Positions 22,221 to 33,883 of a DNA stretch of 64,000 bases are shown here, piece after piece. Every line of letters starts with the position of its first letter. Position 1 is the stretch's first letter. The notes under the pieces are model-generated. The model made no database searches. It had not been told where the DNA came from and worked only from the letters and a program-made list of their open reading frames with translations. The stretch spans positions 1,612,001-1,676,000 of the forward strand of contig BPGE01000001.1 in the NCBI GenBank assembly GCA_026002875.1, in the 5' to 3' direction. The stretch is from Bryobacteraceae bacterium. Lineage in GTDB: Bacteria > Acidobacteriota > Terriglobia > Bryobacterales > Bryobacteraceae. Both the position numbers and the translations under genes were made by a program.

Positions 22221-22297
22221 TGGTACGCCCGGCACGATTCGAACGTGCGACCTTTTGCTCCGGAGGCAAACGCTCTATCCAGCTGAGCTACGGGCGC
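22221..22297 (-). tRNA. tRNA-Arg (anticodon CCG)
   Basis: The minus strand folds as a complete tRNA: acceptor GCGCCCG with CGGGCGT (first pair G-U), D arm GCTC/GAGC, anticodon stem TTTGC/GCAAA with loop CTCCGGA giving anticodon CCG for CGG codons, and T arm GCACG/CGTGC with the TTCGAAT loop. The 3' CCA is encoded (22221-22223). Confidence 0.97.
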
Positions 22298-27872: not shown

Positions 27873-28426
27873 CCGGACGCACGGACCTCCTCGCTCTGCT
27901 TCGCGCCCACACGCCCTGGGACGCCCGCGAAGCCGCCATGCTCGCCCGCATCATCGCCTTTGTCGAAGCCCACGAAGACTGCTTTGAGCGGTCCCTGCTG
28001 ATCGGCCACGTCACCGGCTCGGCCTGGGTCGTCAATCCCGAGCGCACCCACGCCCTGCTCGTCCACCACCGCCGCCTCGACCGCTGGCTTCAGCCCGGCG
28101 GCCATTGCGACGGCAGCCCGGATGTGCTCGCCACCGCCCTGCGCGAAGTTCTCGAAGAAACCGGCATCGAAGCCCGCCCGGTCGCAAGAGCCGTGTTCGA
28201 CGTCGATGCTCACGACATCCCCGCGCGCGGCGCGGAGCCCGCCCACGTCCACTACGACATCCGCTTCCTCGCCGAAGCGCCGCTGTCGCAGCAGCCTGTC
28301 GTCAGCCCGGAGTCGCGCGATGTCCGTTGGGTCGCACTCGGCGACATCCCTTCGCTTGGAACCGACTCTTCCGTCCTCCGCCTGGTCGAAAAAACACGTC
28401 CGTCCTCATCTGTTCGGGACCGTTGA
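27869..28426 (+). CDS. NUDIX hydrolase
   Basis: A 185-residue cytoplasmic NUDIX protein that would hydrolyse a nucleoside diphosphate linked to another group. The NUDIX box reads GHCDGSPDVLATALREVLEETGI: the REVLEETG core that binds metal is intact, but the first Glu of the Gx5E part is replaced by Pro, as in some other subfamilies. GTG start at 27869 overlaps the amidohydrolase stop. Its own stop codon lies inside the -35 box of the next promoter. Confidence 0.9.
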   Translation: MTGRTDLLALLRAHTPWDAREAAMLARIIAFVEAHEDCFERSLLIGHVTGSAWVVNPERTHALLVHHRRLDRWLQPGGHCDGSPDVLATALREVLEETGIEARPVARAVFDVDAHDIPARGAEPAHVHYDIRFLAEAPLSQQPVVSPESRDVRWVALGDIPSLGTDSSVLRLVEKTRPSSSVRDR

Positions 28427-28451
28427 CACCGCCGCGCGCGCGCCGTAGGAT
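28423..28451 (+). promoter_or_regulatory. Sigma70-type promoter of the fluoride-riboswitch operon
   Basis: A perfect -35 box TTGACA (28423-28428) is spaced 17 bp from TAGGAT (28446-28451, four of six). Transcription would start near 28458, a few bases before the riboswitch aptamer. The -35 box contains the stop codon of the NUDIX gene. Confidence 0.75.
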
Positions 28452-28463
28452 CGAGACGTACAG

Positions 28464-28520
28464 TTGAAAGCGGTGGAGTCCGCTTCCCGCCGTTGCCAAC
28501 AACGGCCAATGACTCCTGCA
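28464..28520 (+). promoter_or_regulatory. Fluoride riboswitch (crcB motif)
   Basis: All elements of the fluoride aptamer are present in order. Stem P1 is AAGCG (28468-28472) with CGCTT (28481-28485); its loop GTGGAGTC holds GGAGTC (28475-28480), which can form the defining pseudoknot with GACTCC (28511-28516). The second stem is GCCGTTG (28489-28495) with CAACGGC (28500-28506), loop CCAA. The segment after it, CAATGACTCCTGC, matches the conserved TGATGACTCCTAC end of the family with small changes. The aptamer starts a few bases after the predicted transcription start and ends 70 nt before the antiporter ATG. No clear terminator hairpin with a T-run follows, so control may act on translation (inference). 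Confidence 0.85.
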
Positions 28521-28590
28521 GCAGGTGGACTGCGGGGTCGTTGGCCGGCCCGGCAGCCACCCAGGACAATCTGACGCAAGGAACCGCCCG

Positions 28591-29799
28591 ATGGAACAGG
28601 TATGGTTCGTCGCAGCGCTGTGGCTGCTGCTGGCTCTCATCGCCGTGCTTGCCGCGCATTGGACCGGCATCTCCACCGCGCTTTCCGAGATCGTCGTCGG
28701 CACCGTGGCGCAGCTCGTCATTGGCATGCTGCTCGGGCGCGAAGCGCTGGGCGCAAAGGCAGGCTGGGTAACGTTTCTCGCCGGCACCGGCGCCGTCGTG
28801 CTCACCTTTCTCGCCGGAGCCGAACTCGACCCGGAAGTCTTCCGCATGAAGTGGCGCGAAGCCCTCGGCGTCGGCCTCGCCGGCTTCCTCGCGCCTTTCT
28901 TTGGCGCCGCGCTCATCGCGCACTATCTGCTGGGCTGGGGCTGGATGCCCTCCTGGCTCGCCGGCGTCGCGCTCTCCACCACCTCCGTCGCGGTTGTTTA
29001 CGCCGTCATGCTCGAGCTCGGCTTCAACCGCACCGAATACGGCAAGGCCATCCTCGCCGCCTGCTTCGTCAACGATCTCGGCACTGTCCTCGCGCTCGGC
29101 TTCATCTTCGCCCCGTTCACCTGGAAGACGCTCGTCTTCGCCGCCCTCTGCGCCGTGGTTCTGTTCGCGCTGCCATTCCTCACACGCTGGTTCTTCGACC
29201 GCTATGGCGGCCGCGTCTCGGAGATGGAAACCAAATACCTTCTCTTCCTCCTGTTCGGCATGGGCGGTGTCGCCGCCTGGGCCGGCAGCGAGGCCGTGCT
29301 CCCCGCCTACCTGATCGGCATGATGCTGGCCGGCACTGTCGGACGCGACCATTTCCTCGTCCGCCGCCTCTGCACCCTCACCTTCGGCCTGCTCACGCCC
29401 TTCTACTTCATCCGCGCCGGCAGCTTCGTCTCCATTCCCGCCCTGCTCGGCGCGCCGCTCGTCTTCTTCGCCCTGTTCGGCGCGAAAATGGCGTCCAAGC
29501 TCGCCGGACTCCTCCCTGTCGTCCGCGCCTTCGGCTACGAACGCAAGGAAGGAACATATTATTCCCTCATGATGTCCACCGGACTCACCTTCGGCACCAT
29601 CTCCGCGCTGTTCGGCCTCAACCACGGCGTCATCGACCAGAACCAGTACTCGCATCTTGTAGCCGCTGTCATCGGCAGCGCCGTCATCCCAACGGCCATT
29701 GCCAACGCGCGCTACCTCCCCGTTCATCTGCTGCCGGAAGAAGAACGCCGCCTCCGCGAGTCCGCTTACGGAGAGCCGGAAGGAGAATTGGATGTCTAG
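28591..29799 (+). CDS. CPA-family cation/proton antiporter under fluoride riboswitch control
   Basis: Inner-membrane antiporter of 402 residues with about eleven or twelve hydrophobic helices. The ion-binding pair is N161-D162 in ACFVNDLGTVLALG, preceded by the STTSVAVVYAVM helix with the unwound polar stretch and the FLAGAELD motif at the end of an earlier helix. It lacks the C-terminal TrkA-N/TrkA-C regulatory domains found in KefB/KefC-type proteins. AAGGA lies 8 nt before the ATG at 28591. Related antiporters have been listed among genes preceded by fluoride riboswitches, so export of fluoride or pH/ion homeostasis under fluoride stress is likely. The DUF190 proteins behind it may take the place of the missing regulatory domains (inference). 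Confidence 0.9.
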   Translation: MEQVWFVAALWLLLALIAVLAAHWTGISTALSEIVVGTVAQLVIGMLLGREALGAKAGWVTFLAGTGAVVLTFLAGAELDPEVFRMKWREALGVGLAGFLAPFFGAALIAHYLLGWGWMPSWLAGVALSTTSVAVVYAVMLELGFNRTEYGKAILAACFVNDLGTVLALGFIFAPFTWKTLVFAALCAVVLFALPFLTRWFFDRYGGRVSEMETKYLLFLLFGMGGVAAWAGSEAVLPAYLIGMMLAGTVGRDHFLVRRLCTLTFGLLTPFYFIRAGSFVSIPALLGAPLVFFALFGAKMASKLAGLLPVVRAFGYERKEGTYYSLMMSTGLTFGTISALFGLNHGVIDQNQYSHLVAAVIGSAVIPTAIANARYLPVHLLPEEERRLRESAYGEPEGELDV

Positions 29800-29829
29800 T
29801 CAAGGATTGCCATCCCCCCAGGAGGCCCC

Positions 29830-30564
29830 ATGCTGAAACGCGGCCCTGCCAAGAAAGTCATCATCTACATCAACGAAGACACGCAGCACCACGCCACCGC
29901 CCTGCACGACGCCATCATGACCTACCTGCTCAACCATGGCGTCTCCGGCGCCACTTCCACCCGCGCCTACGCAGGCTTTGGCGCCAGCCAGACGTTGCAC
30001 ACGCCGAAGATCGAGGTGCTCTCCCAGCACCTCCCTCTCCGCATTGAATTTGTCGAGACTCCTGAAAAGGTGGAGGAACTGCTCCCCACCCTCTACGACA
30101 TGGTCACCGACGGCCTCATCGAAGTCCACGACACGTTCGTCGTCAAGGCCGCCCGCAGGACCCCCAAGCCCGAGCCGAAACTCCCGCACCTGAAAAAACA
30201 GGCTCCCGCCCGGCTCCTCCGCGTCTTCCTTGGCGAGGCCGACCGCTGGCACGGCGAGCCCCTCTACGACGCCATCGTCAAGAAGCTCCGCATGCTTGAA
30301 ATCGCTGGCGCCACCGTCTACCGCGGCATTCTCGGCTACGGCGCCAAGGGCCACGAACACAAGGGCAGCTTCTTCCACCCGACGCGCGACCTGCCCGTCA
30401 TGATCTCCGTCATTGACGAGCCCGACAAAATCGCCCAGGCAGTCGAAGCCATCGAACAGATGCTCGACGACGGCCTCATCGTCATCTCCGACGTCGATAT
30501 GGTCCGCCTCCTCCGCGGAGGCGTCAGCACGGAGCAGTCCCATGCAGGCGGCCCAACCAGCTAA
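29830..30564 (+). CDS. Tandem DUF190 (PII-like) protein
   Basis: A cytoplasmic 244-residue protein made of two DUF190 domains. The first (about 5-110) contains KKVIIYINEDTQHHATALHD and YLLNHGVSGATSTRAYAGFG; the second (about 125-232) contains RLLRVFLGEADRWHGEPLYD and EIAGATVYRGILGYGAKG. Both end in the DGLI region that closes the ferredoxin-like fold. DUF190 proteins are structurally related to PII signalling proteins and often sit next to CrcB or to antiporters. GGAGG 5 nt before the ATG suggests strong translation. It lies 30 bp after the antiporter gene and overlaps the next DUF190 gene by 23 bp. Confidence 0.92.
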   Translation: MLKRGPAKKVIIYINEDTQHHATALHDAIMTYLLNHGVSGATSTRAYAGFGASQTLHTPKIEVLSQHLPLRIEFVETPEKVEELLPTLYDMVTDGLIEVHDTFVVKAARRTPKPEPKLPHLKKQAPARLLRVFLGEADRWHGEPLYDAIVKKLRMLEIAGATVYRGILGYGAKGHEHKGSFFHPTRDLPVMISVIDEPDKIAQAVEAIEQMLDDGLIVISDVDMVRLLRGGVSTEQSHAGGPTS

Positions 30565-30895
30565 GCTCCTCCGCATCCACATCTCCGCCGGCGACCGCTG
30601 GCAGGGCAAGCCCCTGTACGAAGCCATCGTCGCCCGCTGCCGCGAGCTCAAAATCGCCGGCGCCACCGTCTTCCGCGGACTCGAGGGCTACGGCGAGACC
30701 GCCATGCTGCACCGGCACCACCTCGCCCGCGCCGACGAGCCCATTCTCATCGCCGTGGTCGATTCCGCTGAAGCCATCGAACGCCTCATTTCCGGGATTG
30801 AACCGATGATCGACACCGGCCTCATCGCCGTTTCCCCGGTCGAAGTGATCCGTGTCCAGAAAAAGTCCCAATCCGGCGAGCCTTCCGGCCGGTAG
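30542..30895 (+). CDS. Single-domain DUF190 (PII-like) protein
   Basis: A 117-residue protein with one DUF190 domain (LLRIHISAGDRWQGKPLYEA, then KIAGATVFRGLEGYGE, then the DTGLIAVSPVEVIRV end). It closely resembles the second domain of the preceding protein, so the three domains in this operon come from duplication. The ATG at 30542 lies inside the preceding gene, implying translational coupling; the C-terminus overlaps the ATPase gene by 44 bp. PII-like proteins form trimers; a mixed trimer or a fused pseudo-hexamer with the tandem protein is possible (inference). Confidence 0.9.
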   Translation: MQAAQPAKLLRIHISAGDRWQGKPLYEAIVARCRELKIAGATVFRGLEGYGETAMLHRHHLARADEPILIAVVDSAEAIERLISGIEPMIDTGLIAVSPVEVIRVQKKSQSGEPSGR

Positions 30896-31616
30896 CCACG
30901 GCTGCGGCGCCTCTCCGCTGCTTCCGCTCGTCGGAAGGCAGCGCGAACTCCGCCGTCTTCAGGCTCTGTTCGCATCCGGCAACCGCGTCCTGGTTCTCGG
31001 ACCCCGCGGCATCGGCAAGTCCCGCCTCATCGCCGAAGCCGCCGCCGCTTCCGGCGTCGAGCCAGTCCGGGTCTCCACGCACGGCCCCCCGCAGGAACTC
31101 TTCCGGCAACTGCTGCCATTGCTTTGCCCGGAAACATCTTCGCCCGTTTCTGTTCGCCGCCTCGCCAGCCAGGTCCTCCAGGCCAGAGTCCTCGCCGCCC
31201 TCCAGTCCCGCCCCCGCTGGATCTGGCTCGACGATCCTCCGCCCGCCAGCGCCCTCCTCTACCGGTTCTTCCAGCGCGTCTTGTGGATCCCCCGCTGCGG
31301 CCTCGTCGCCGCCGTGGAAAACCGCGCCCGGCTCGGCGCCCTCGCCCGTCTTCTTTACGATCCGCGTGAAGAGCTCCTTCTTGCCCCGCTCAGCCACGCC
31401 GAATCCGCGGCGCTTCTCGAGCACGCCATCCACGCCTTCGGCCTCGCCCTCCACGATTCGCCCGCCGAATTCCGCCTGCGCACCCTCGAGGCCGCCGGCG
31501 GCAACCCCGGCCGCATCGTCACCCTCTGCCGCCTCGCCGCCCAGCCGCAATATTGGCATGGCGGCCGGCTCATGTTCGCGCCTCTCTGGATCGATACTCT
31601 CACCCGACTGGCGTAG
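30852..31616 (+). CDS. P-loop ATPase of AAA/STAND type, operon partner of DUF190 genes
   Basis: A 254-residue protein with a single nucleotide-binding domain: the entry VGRQRELRRLQALF, Walker A G50-P-R-G-I-G-K56-S57, and Walker B with D127-D128 in RWIWLDDPPP. The last third carries a helical lid (LSHAESAALLEHAIHAF). It resembles the NTPase cores of AAA_16/ORC-like proteins but has no effector or DNA-binding domain. The GTG at 30852 is the only reasonable start, because no other start codon precedes the conserved VGRQREL; it overlaps the DUF190 gene by 44 bp. The stop overlaps the convergent dynamin gene by 17 bp. Function unknown; co-transcription points to the fluoride/antiporter unit. Confidence 0.75.
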   Translation: MSRKSPNPASLPAGSHGCGASPLLPLVGRQRELRRLQALFASGNRVLVLGPRGIGKSRLIAEAAAASGVEPVRVSTHGPPQELFRQLLPLLCPETSSPVSVRRLASQVLQARVLAALQSRPRWIWLDDPPPASALLYRFFQRVLWIPRCGLVAAVENRARLGALARLLYDPREELLLAPLSHAESAALLEHAIHAFGLALHDSPAEFRLRTLEAAGGNPGRIVTLCRLAAQPQYWHGGRLMFAPLWIDTLTRLA

Positions 31617-33675
31617 CGGCTACTCCGCCGGGCGGCGTCCTCAGGGCCTCTTCCGCACGCTCCAGCTCTTCCAGCCATTGCTCCAGCCGCGCCTGATGCT
31701 CCGCCTCCACCTCGCCCGCGGAAAGCAGCCGCGCGATCTCCGCGCGGAACACGCCGGCCTCGGCGTCGAACCGCTCCTGCAGCGCCTCCAGCTGCCGCAG
31801 CATCCACGCTTCGAGGCTCCGCGAGTACGCTTCCAGCGTCTTCCACACCGCGCCTCCCGCCCGCCGCTCCAGCCCCGCTGCCGCAATCCGGCTCCCTGCG
31901 CCCGGCAGTCCCGCCAGCTTCGGCAGCCGCACTTCCTCCGGCAGCATGTCCAGCCCCGGAACCGGCAACGCCCCCACTTCCGTGCACTCGAGACCCTGTC
32001 CTTCCGCTTCCGCGCCGGGCCGCATCACGTGACGCGCCATGTCCACCGCCGCCGCCAAAACGGCGCACAATTGTTTCAGGTGATGGTGGATCTCCTCTCC
32101 CGCCGCGCTGCAGACTTCCAGCGCCGCCGTGCGCAACTCTCCCCCGCAGGCGGCCCTGTCGCCCCACAGGCGCTTCTTCGCGATCCGCTCCGCGGCCAGC
32201 TCCAGCACTCTCCGGCCCTGTGCGCGCAGCGCGTCCACCATCTCCATCCCCTCGCGTCTCGATGATTCGAGACTCGCCGCCGCCCGCCGCAGCGCTCCTT
32301 CGATTCGCTCCAGTTCCGCCCGCGGAATCCGCCCCCGCCCTCCGTCCAGACGCCCGCGCAGCGCCGCCGCCACCGATGCCCGCAACGCGCGCGCCTTCCT
32401 CTCGAGCGACTCCGCCGCCAGCTCCCGGTGCCGCTCCAGCACCGGCCGCAGCATCGTCCTCTGCCACTCTTCCAGCAGCCCCGCATGCGCCTCTTCCACG
32501 CTCACCGCCGCCACCGGCACTTCGCGTCCCAGTTCCCGCGCCAGCACCCCGGCCGTATACACGCGCGCCCGTTCCAGGTCCCTCTCGTTCAGCAGATCCG
32601 CCTTGCTCAGCAGCACCATCGACGGCGTGCTCGCCCGCTCCAGCAGATCCAGCGTCGCCAGGTCTTCTTCGTTCATCGGCGTCACCGCCGTCACCAGCAG
32701 CAGTCCCAGGTCGCACCGCGGCAGATACGCCAGCGTCTCCGCCGCTCCCGATGTTGCCAGCGAGCCCAGCCCAGGCGTATCCACGAACACCAGGCCGTCG
32801 GACAGAATCGGGCTCGGCACCCTCACCACCAGCCGCAGCACTTCCCGCTGGTTCGCCGGATTCAGCTCCTCTGTGGCGAACAGCGGCAACTGTTCCACGC
32901 CCAGCCGCTCCACCCGCCCGCCGGCGAAGTAGACCGTCATCCCGGCTTCTTCCCCATATTGAATCCGCACCGGCACCGCCGTCACGGGCGTCACTCCCAC
33001 AGGCAGCACGTCCATCCCCAGCAGCCGGTTCAGCAGCGACGACTTGCCGCTGCTCACCCGTCCGAACACCGCCAGCTCGAACGTTGGCGCCTCCAGCTTT
33101 TCCACCAGCCGTTGCAGCGCCGGACGGAACTCCGTCAGATCCTCCTCCCGGATCACCTTCTCGAGCGTCCGCAACAGCCCCGCCGTGTCGCTGCCCGCCC
33201 CGAACCGCGCCAGCCGTTCCTCGAGATCCGCGCCGGTTCCGCTCCGCAATTCCGATTCCAGCGTCGCCACCAGCGACTCAAGCTGGTTCGTTACTCCCCG
33301 CAGCGCCTCTTCCGCCTCCGGCGCCAGCCCGCCATAGCCCCGCAGATGCTCTGGCGCCATCTCCTGCACCGCGATCCGCACAAACGCCAGCGTCACCAGA
33401 ATCGAGTGCAGCGCCCCGAACCGCGGACGCCCCCCGGCGCCGTCCACCTGCGCCGCCTCCAGGAACCGCCCCAGCTGCCGCCGGAACTGCGCGATCGACG
33501 ACCGCACCAGCCGCGCCTGTTGCGGCGTCACATCCGGGTGATGGCGGCGGAACAGACGTCCCGCCTCCGCGCCCATCAGAATGTTCTCGATATCCGCCAG
33601 CAGCTTGTCCGCGTATTCGGCGTTGGCCAGGATCCGCCTCTGCTGGCTTTCGTTGAATGGCGCCGTGCCGCCCAT
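31600..33675 (-). CDS. Dynamin-family GTPase
   Basis: A large bacterial dynamin-like GTPase of 691 residues. The G domain spans about 195-420: G1 GRVSSGKSS (205-213), G2 Thr within VTPVTAVPV, G3 DTPGLGS (299-305) and G4 SKAD (357-360). The N-terminal 190 residues and the C-terminal 270 residues are largely helical and charged, as expected for the stalk and bundle-signalling elements; a stretch after the G domain (ERIEGALRRAAASLESSRRE) looks coiled-coil. A hydrophobic paddle is not obvious. Such proteins act in membrane remodelling or repair. A good GGAAGGAG ribosome site precedes the ATG. It converges on and overlaps the ATPase gene. Confidence 0.9.
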   Translation of the reverse strand: MGGTAPFNESQQRRILANAEYADKLLADIENILMGAEAGRLFRRHHPDVTPQQARLVRSSIAQFRRQLGRFLEAAQVDGAGGRPRFGALHSILVTLAFVRIAVQEMAPEHLRGYGGLAPEAEEALRGVTNQLESLVATLESELRSGTGADLEERLARFGAGSDTAGLLRTLEKVIREEDLTEFRPALQRLVEKLEAPTFELAVFGRVSSGKSSLLNRLLGMDVLPVGVTPVTAVPVRIQYGEEAGMTVYFAGGRVERLGVEQLPLFATEELNPANQREVLRLVVRVPSPILSDGLVFVDTPGLGSLATSGAAETLAYLPRCDLGLLLVTAVTPMNEEDLATLDLLERASTPSMVLLSKADLLNERDLERARVYTAGVLARELGREVPVAAVSVEEAHAGLLEEWQRTMLRPVLERHRELAAESLERKARALRASVAAALRGRLDGGRGRIPRAELERIEGALRRAAASLESSRREGMEMVDALRAQGRRVLELAAERIAKKRLWGDRAACGGELRTAALEVCSAAGEEIHHHLKQLCAVLAAAVDMARHVMRPGAEAEGQGLECTEVGALPVPGLDMLPEEVRLPKLAGLPGAGSRIAAAGLERRAGGAVWKTLEAYSRSLEAWMLRQLEALQERFDAEAGVFRAEIARLLSAGEVEAEHQARLEQWLEELERAEEALRTPPGGVAATPVG

Positions 33676-33883
33676 CTCTCCTTCCTTTCAGGCTGGCCTC
33701 CCGCGCCGGCTTCATCCGGCTGCCCGGTTCCAGGTAGGAGTCATCTGCCCGGCCAGCGGGCGGTTCACGGCGAACTCCAACGCCTGCATCAAATATGACG
33801 CATCCGCGCCCGCTCTGGATACAGCCTTCTTCGCCCCCGTAATAGGTTTGTGTTATTGACGCATCGGCCGGCCCTGTGACGAA

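Follow-up and report, generated by a model that had tools for sequence, protein, structure and literature searches.

Does a fluoride-controlled antiporter operon act on its own, or does it belong to a wider response to fluoride? This question is raised by a 64,000-nucleotide stretch of the genome of a soil bacterium of the Bryobacteraceae (GCA_026002875.1, contig BPGE01000001.1, positions 1,612,001 to 1,676,000; hereafter the window), in which a fluoride aptamer (aptamer 1) leads an operon that encodes a cation/H+ antiporter, a tandem and a single DUF190 protein, and a P-loop ATPase. A previous annotation (the sequence-only reading) regarded the operon as a fluoride-responsive ion transport unit whose antiporter is gated by the DUF190 proteins and a dedicated ATPase. 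That annotation did not include a stronger aptamer at 33728-33793, which precedes a dynamin-like gene converging on the ATPase gene. By comparing this locus with those of related genomes and of plasmids, we arrive at a broader explanation, to which we assign a probability of about 0.62. The antiporter operon and a pair of dynamin-like GTPases (proteins of the membrane-reshaping kind), designated DynA and DynB, would stand under fluoride aptamers and together constitute a fluoride-inducible resistance regulon with a membrane-remodelling arm. The antiporter is an already known part of such a response; the dynamins are its most unusual part.

DynB and DynA are preceded by fluoride aptamers

DynB (31600..33675, minus strand) encodes a dynamin-like GTPase of 691 amino acids. 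The gene converges on the antiporter operon, sharing 17 bases with the end of the ATPase gene. Aptamer 2 (33728..33793, minus strand) lies 52 bases before DynB and matches the fluoride riboswitch model RF01734 with 45.3 bits, above the gathering score of 34 bits; it is the only fluoride aptamer at that score in a scan of the whole window. It also scores 67.5 bits against R1, a covariance model that we built from 43 other Bryobacteraceae aptamers, with the site of aptamer 1 left out. The window's genome is a single contig of 4.86 Mb, to which whole-genome E values refer. The other aptamer over the cut-off in this genome (G000:C1:2557867) precedes DynA, which encodes a dynamin-like protein of 574 amino acids (L048 7112-8833).

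Both proteins exceed the PF00350 cut-off of 27 (79.7 bits for DynB, 71.9 bits for DynA). A Dynamin_N search of the genome gave four matches, of which DynA and DynB are strong and the other two are weaker than the matches listed. The P-loop, DTPG, and (T/S)KxD motifs are invariant over the 15 DynB rows of alignment A2. In profile searches of the Protein Data Bank (PDB), the best match of DynB (profile A2) was chain A of 5owv (E 8e-23) and that of DynA was chain C of the same entry (E 9e-28), with the matches covering mainly the G domain. Entry 5OWV is the Cj-DLP1/2 tetramer of Campylobacter jejuni (PMC6104087); the sizes given in that paper, 84.5 and 71.2 kDa, suggest that the longer chain A is DLP1. 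DynA and DynB are two paralogues in one genome, each of which best matches a different chain of a Cj-DLP1/DLP2-type pair.

Dynamins and aptamers in Bryobacteraceae

In a survey of 150 Bryobacteraceae genomes, RF01734 matches occur in 70 genomes at E 0.01, antiporter genes in 34 at E 1e-30, CrcB genes in 109, ATPase genes in 25 at E 1e-15, and strong dynamins in 45. We defined a strong dynamin as a Dynamin_N place of at least 54 bits, which gave 77 places after two pieces in G057 were joined as one; weaker rows, mostly Era/Der-like by length among the matches listed, were excluded. For this tally the aptamer set consisted of RF01734 matches to E 8.6e-4 and four further aptamers. An aptamer lies within 10 kb of 68 of the 77 strong dynamin domains; for 47 of these domains it stands upstream on the same strand at a distance of no more than 1.5 kb, and the other 21 have one elsewhere within 10 kb. 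At five of the nine remaining dynamins, R1 detects an aptamer of at least 27 bits (G095, two at one G056 locus, G045, G094).

The reverse view, from aptamer to gene, was obtained by mapping 100 of 112 R1 rows. The map leaves out nine rows that lie on duplicate contigs or do not belong to the 150 genomes, the two rows of lowest score, and an R1 aptamer (L106 10855-10917) upstream of that locus's antiporter. According to open reading frame prediction, the first gene after these 100 aptamers is the antiporter in 32 cases, DynB in 18, DynA in 14, enolase in 7, CrcB in 4, the ATPase in 4, and the tandem DUF190 gene in 1. No first gene was assigned for 20; among them, the map places DynB at L127, L130, and L135, 11 have a long frame nearby, and the rest have none. 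Fluoride control of the dynamin pair appears well supported by these comparisons.

Some loci hold several regulatory RNAs. Six R1 aptamers occur in each of L126 4238-17288 (about 13 kb) and L129 5963-16050 (about 10 kb), some as closely spaced opposed pairs. An nhaA-I RNA motif is present at L191 2288-2347, in a locus with DynA, DynB, and fluoride aptamers.

Dynamins in other Acidobacteriota and on plasmids

We searched 297 Acidobacteriota genomes with a DynA profile and found DynA-like genes at E<1e-40 in 33. An RF01734 match is present in 32 of these 33 genomes versus 68 of the 264 others (Fisher 4e-16, a value that is overstated because related genomes are not independent). In G205, the single dynamin genome without a match, the dynamin lies at the edge of a contig. 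Distances were tallied for 34 of 46 dynamin rows, leaving out two from the window's own genome, three DynB partners, and seven weaker than 1e-30. Judged by distance only, a same-strand aptamer lies less than 400 bases upstream in 20 of the 34 places and at 0.4-5 kb in 11; none was found at the other three, two of them near contig starts (G205 and G390) and the third in G351:C35. Among 20 dynamin loci of 4-19 kb, R1 detects an aptamer in 18, and Rfam in 10 of the 11 loci scanned. CrcB, enolase, and DUF190 genes recur beside the dynamins of the phylum.

A tblastn search with DynA in 72,556 plasmid records yielded 10 records, of which eight were opened (H3 and H7, of the same species as H2 and H6, were left out). 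Three of the eight dynamin loci lie in fluoride loci. In two Burkholderia plasmids (L245, L246) the order is aptamer, hypothetical protein, dynamin. The surrounding islands each hold five RF01734 aptamers, together with ppa (pyrophosphatase), eno (enolase), MutS, DUF190, and hydrogenase- or NADH-quinone-oxidoreductase-like genes. The idea that the intervening hypothetical protein corresponds to the ATPase was rejected, as it has neither similarity to it nor a Pfam match. The Lichenicola plasmid (L239 4440-7506) has an aptamer followed by CrcB fused to a universal stress (Usp) domain, and its dynamin is divergent; no aptamer was found on the dynamin's own strand. A tree built from 38 G domains puts the Burkholderia proteins in the DynB clade (99/96) and leaves the Lichenicola protein unplaced; its deep forks are weak.

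The antiporter operon and its leader

Every element that the sequence-only reading had described in the operon is present, including the two gene overlaps. The antiporter (28591..29799, plus strand; 402 amino acids) starts at a conserved ATG at 28591. It scores 121.2 bits against PF00999 (cut-off 26.2) and 115.2 bits against the CPA2 family TIGR00932, below the NCBI cut-off of 238.3; its best PDB match is 4bwz, a Na+/H+ antiporter. We refer to it as CPA2-like. The tandem DUF190 (PII-like) protein (29830..30564, plus strand; 244 amino acids) matches PF02641 in two stretches, and its gene overlaps that of the single DUF190 protein (30542..30895, plus strand; 117 amino acids) by 23 bp; both pass the PF02641 cut-off of 23.4 (203.6 and 100.2 bits). 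The last gene (30852..31616, plus strand), which overlaps its predecessor by 44 bp, encodes a STAND/AAA P-loop ATPase (nSTAND6/AAA_16; alignment A4) of 254 amino acids with 39.0 bits against PF25201 (cut-off 27.7) and 38.9 bits against PF13191 (cut-off 32.6). Its orthologue in L051 scores below both cut-offs. Upstream of aptamer 1, a consensus scan found a sigma-70-like promoter, TTGACA-17-TAGGAT (28423..28451, plus strand); one such site was found versus a mean of 0.4 in shuffled sequences, which alone is no evidence of function. Elsewhere in the window, a tRNA gene lies at 22224-22297 on the minus strand.

Aptamer 1 (28460..28525, plus strand) is composed of P1, P3, and the pseudoknot GGAGU/ACUCC. 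RF01734 does match at 28460-28525, but with 24.2 bits (E 1.2e-4 in 401 bases, 3.5e-4 in the whole genome) the match stays under the gathering score; R1 gives 46.1 bits (E 2e-11 with 1.03 Mb searched). Because R1 includes antiporter leaders of other genera, this score tests family membership and not independent origin. Over 30 Bryobacteraceae antiporter leaders, in which the aptamer ends 58-84 bases upstream of the antiporter, 97.1% of cells in P1, P3, and the pseudoknot are paired versus 33-48% when the pairing is slid. Five aptamer pairs vary on both sides and the pseudoknot itself is invariant. Of the 39 antiporter leaders listed, 37 show the aptamer core, and all 34 antiporter-bearing genomes have an RF01734 match, which bears out the earlier description of an aptamer-led antiporter operon with three DUF190 domains. 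A weak RF01734 match elsewhere in the genome (G000:C1:2911397, 20.4 bits) was treated as chance, since R1 gives only 11.3 bits.

The leader also allows an alternative pairing, between a strand further downstream and the pseudoknot strand ACUCCU with the bases that follow it. The resulting hairpin (28505..28545, plus strand; alignment A5) takes its 5' arm from the 3' side of aptamer 1, that is, from P3 and the pseudoknot strand, and has a core of 28514-28521 with 28530-28537. Each of the eight core pairs occurs in 97-100% of sequences; one shows changes on both sides in five. The outer pairs are present in 28-79% and fail in 21-72%; over the whole 16-pair hairpin 78.7% of cells are paired versus 77.7% in shuffles. 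Given these failures and this small excess, we dropped the hairpin beyond its core as a general feature. When the window leader is folded alone, P3 forms and the whole aptamer is not the minimum-energy structure (z -1.9, with pseudoknots outside the model). The hairpin is likely the OFF state of the antiporter leader. When fluoride is absent, the aptamer's 3' side would likely pair downstream; fluoride would lock the pseudoknot and free expression. Such a layout is as would be expected of an ON switch, like the one suggested for crcB RNAs in which terminator and motif overlap (PMC2864571).

Antiporters and CrcB across Bryobacteraceae

The sequence-only reading had emphasized that the operon lacks CrcB and CLC-F. 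This is true of the operon itself, where neither a CrcB nor a CLC gene occurs, yet it is no general rule. In 9 of 33 loci the gene next downstream of the antiporter is CrcB; in the other 24, which include the window and its genus, it is not. With 24 such loci, loss of CrcB in this genus was dropped as a reading. The fullest arrangement (L098 and L107) reads aptamer, antiporter, CrcB, tandem DUF190, single DUF190, ATPase, DynA, with DynB on the opposite strand behind its own aptamer. The single CrcB gene in the window's genome sits away from the operon and is followed by a DUF190 gene of its own; R1 detects no aptamer in the 13-kb CrcB locus. CLC-F as an alternative exporter was ruled out, there being no CLC match in the whole genome. 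Per genome, aptamers and CrcB are not linked (52 of 109 genomes with CrcB and 18 of 41 without CrcB have an aptamer).

Antiporter homologues with 52-67% identity occur on 38 plasmid records, and an aptamer lies directly upstream in both of those opened (Citrobacter, Caulobacter). A record titled Arcobacter sp. (L039; DYJN01000033.1) encodes an antiporter 93% identical to the window's in the same gene order; because of this identity and order, the Arcobacter label looks wrong.

Discussion

The findings fit a model in which fluoride enters the cell as hydrogen fluoride and binds aptamers in mRNA leaders, which would turn the genes behind them on; the comparative evidence for this step is strong. 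The antiporter mRNA would give rise to a cation/H+ antiporter that counters acid and ion imbalance, and the PII-like DUF190 proteins, which accompany fluoride transporters, may regulate them. Other aptamer-led mRNAs would produce DynA and DynB, relatives of Cj-DLP1/DLP2, with the ATPase accompanying them. Most likely, DynA and DynB assemble with GTP on the inner membrane, where they would tether, seal or reshape the membrane under fluoride stress. A part for them in sealing or tethering membranes is plausible from the behavior of the dynamin family. Cj-DLP1/DLP2 are reported to form a 2:2 heterotetramer that tethers membranes, and a general function in membrane repair has been speculated, the role of bacterial dynamins being described as poorly understood (PMC6104087). 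The aptamers before dynamin genes suggest that remodelling or repairing the cell membrane is part of how cells deal with fluoride.

Several observations weigh against this model. The joining bases before the 5' strand of P3 (28486-28487) are CC in aptamer 1 and AA in most other antiporter leaders; AA is nearly invariant in alignment A1 and is retained in aptamer 2. CC is common to all five leaders of the genus (window, L055, L051, L057, L053). Because of this replacement the affinity of the genus antiporter aptamers for fluoride may be weakened. In addition, no U-run follows the downstream hairpin of the antiporter leader. With respect to the dynamins, a laxer cut of E<1e-20 in the phylum survey lowers the association to 33 of 38 genomes versus 67 of 259, and R1 detects an aptamer in 22 of 29 shorter dynamin loci. 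Four dynamin places of 35-46 bits (G067:C181, G033:C23, G067:C689, G071:C123) stand outside the Bryobacteraceae tally. Within that tally, the dynamin of G036:C113 has only a weak R1 aptamer of 16.9 bits, and R1 found none in the fetched loci of the strong dynamins of G012:C190, G011, and G057. Strong dynamins are absent from 31 of the 70 aptamer-bearing genomes of the family, which implies that the dynamin pair is not generally needed. Finally, five of the eight opened plasmid loci (Nonomuraea, Anabaena, Rhodococcus, Pseudomonas, Lysinibacillus) contain no RF01734 match at the gathering score within 12-15 kb. Dynamins as such are therefore not linked to fluoride.

Other explanations of the locus differ mainly in the part they give to the dynamins. 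The operon could be a self-contained ion transport unit, with the DUF190 proteins and the ATPase gating the antiporter and the dynamin an incidental neighbor. This would account for its overlapping genes of one direction, and gene neighborhoods agree in part: of the 32 tandem DUF190 genes placed, 12 come immediately after the antiporter, and ATPase and antiporter occur together in 18 of the 25 ATPase-bearing genomes. However, CrcB is the more frequent predecessor of the tandem DUF190 gene (16 of 32; the predecessor is DynA in two places and none of these in two). Nor does the ATPase appear dedicated to the antiporter, as had been claimed, for seven of the 25 genomes lack the antiporter and only one lacks strong dynamins. 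In G099, a member of the same genus, a deletion (L053 9708-10049) leaves the first 57 residues of the antiporter joined to the end of the single DUF190 protein; the tandem DUF190 gene was not found there, and the aptamer upstream, the ATPase downstream, DynB, and DynA remain. Because of this retention, its co-occurrence with strong dynamins (24 of 25 genomes versus 18 with the antiporter), and its position directly before DynA in 7 of 32 places, the ATPase seems to be a partner of the dynamins more than of the antiporter. Since the dynamin also has its own aptamer, we consider a self-contained unit unlikely.

We give slightly less credence to the idea that the dynamins are surplus copies of GTPases inhibited by fluoride (as metal fluoride-GDP complexes) and are overproduced like enolase and pyrophosphatase. 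Enolase, which is inhibited by fluoride (PMC11139923), is indeed the first gene after 7 of 100 aptamers, and the Campylobacter pair was crystallised with GDP.AlF4. Against it, no further strong dynamin exists in the genome for which they could serve as spare copies, and essential GTPases such as Era, Der, or EF-Tu, at which aptamers were not searched for, would be more obvious targets. It is more doubtful again that the pair is a general device against envelope stress or phages that fluoride loci captured as cargo. Bacterial dynamins have been tied to envelope stress in other species (PMC6104087), and PADLOC gave weak matches to LeoA/LeoBC; yet the other four of the six proteins scanned had no match, and aptamers lie directly upstream of dynamins across many Acidobacteriota families and in Burkholderia plasmids. 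With only these weak PADLOC matches, we rejected a defense system. A very improbable but attractive variant makes DynA and DynB both sensor and effector. Cytoplasmic fluoride with Mg or Al and GDP would mimic the GTPase transition state and lock inner-membrane oligomers only while fluoride is present, and the resulting coats would either seal the membrane or keep CrcB and the antiporter in an active state. In this variant the riboswitch would set the amount of the proteins and the fluoride-nucleotide complex their activity. The GDP.AlF4 crystal of the Campylobacter relative shows only that such a complex can bind.

If the regulon exists as we propose, it would extend the literature picture of bacterial fluoride resistance, which in the excerpted texts of the papers cited here consists of export, repair of pH and ion balance, and a surplus of inhibited enzymes. 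A dynamin-like pair controlled by fluoride riboswitches, both in many Acidobacteriota and on two Burkholderia plasmid islands, would add membrane remodelling as a further arm. Bacterial dynamins would gain a probable inducer whose dose can be set experimentally, and both the ATPase and the DUF190 proteins would be placed in a testable context. Our literature search found no paper linking a fluoride riboswitch with a dynamin or DUF190, although an earlier mention is possible because the gene lists of Baker 2012 were not covered. Among papers on crcB and dynamin or on fluoride and bacterial dynamins, none concerned, by title, a response to fluoride.

Comparison with known systems

Genes described under fluoride riboswitches include exporters, Na+/H+ antiporters, pyrophosphatase, enolase, and HAD proteins, as well as formate hydrogen lyase, MutS, and K+ or Cl- transport genes (PMC11139923, PMC2864571, PMC7266159, PMC5533749). 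Na+/H+ antiporters are thus a gene kind already known from this set (PMC11139923). The ppaC-uspA-eno-gpmA-crcB-orf5249 operon of Enterobacter cloacae FRM (PMC5533749) and the Citrobacter plasmid island L244 likewise combine RF01734 control with antiporter, CrcB, and enolase members. Unlike those regulons, ours would include dynamin-like GTPases and a STAND/AAA ATPase, which are not named as fluoride-riboswitch genes in the excerpted texts of these papers.

The antiporter shares PF00999 over about 350 residues with NapA/KefC-type CPA2 antiporters. It differs in that, with 402 residues, it lacks the long C-terminal part of KefC (561-residue chain), and in its aligned motif, which is F(V/I)ND(L/I)GT in 26 of 30 sequences. 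The DUF190 proteins have PF02641 in common with PH1503 (2dcl) and TM0021 (1o51) and differ from them in the two-domain tandem fusion and the third, separate DUF190 domain. Like DynB and DynA, Cj-DLP1 and Cj-DLP2 of Campylobacter jejuni (5owv, 5oxf; PMC6104087) are the long and the short member of a pair. The operon neighbor of the Campylobacter pair is an HcpA-like beta-lactamase, and the main text of PMC6104087 mentions GDP.AlF4 and not fluoride. In contrast to that pair, DynA and DynB lie in separate units in the window's genome, each with its own fluoride aptamer.

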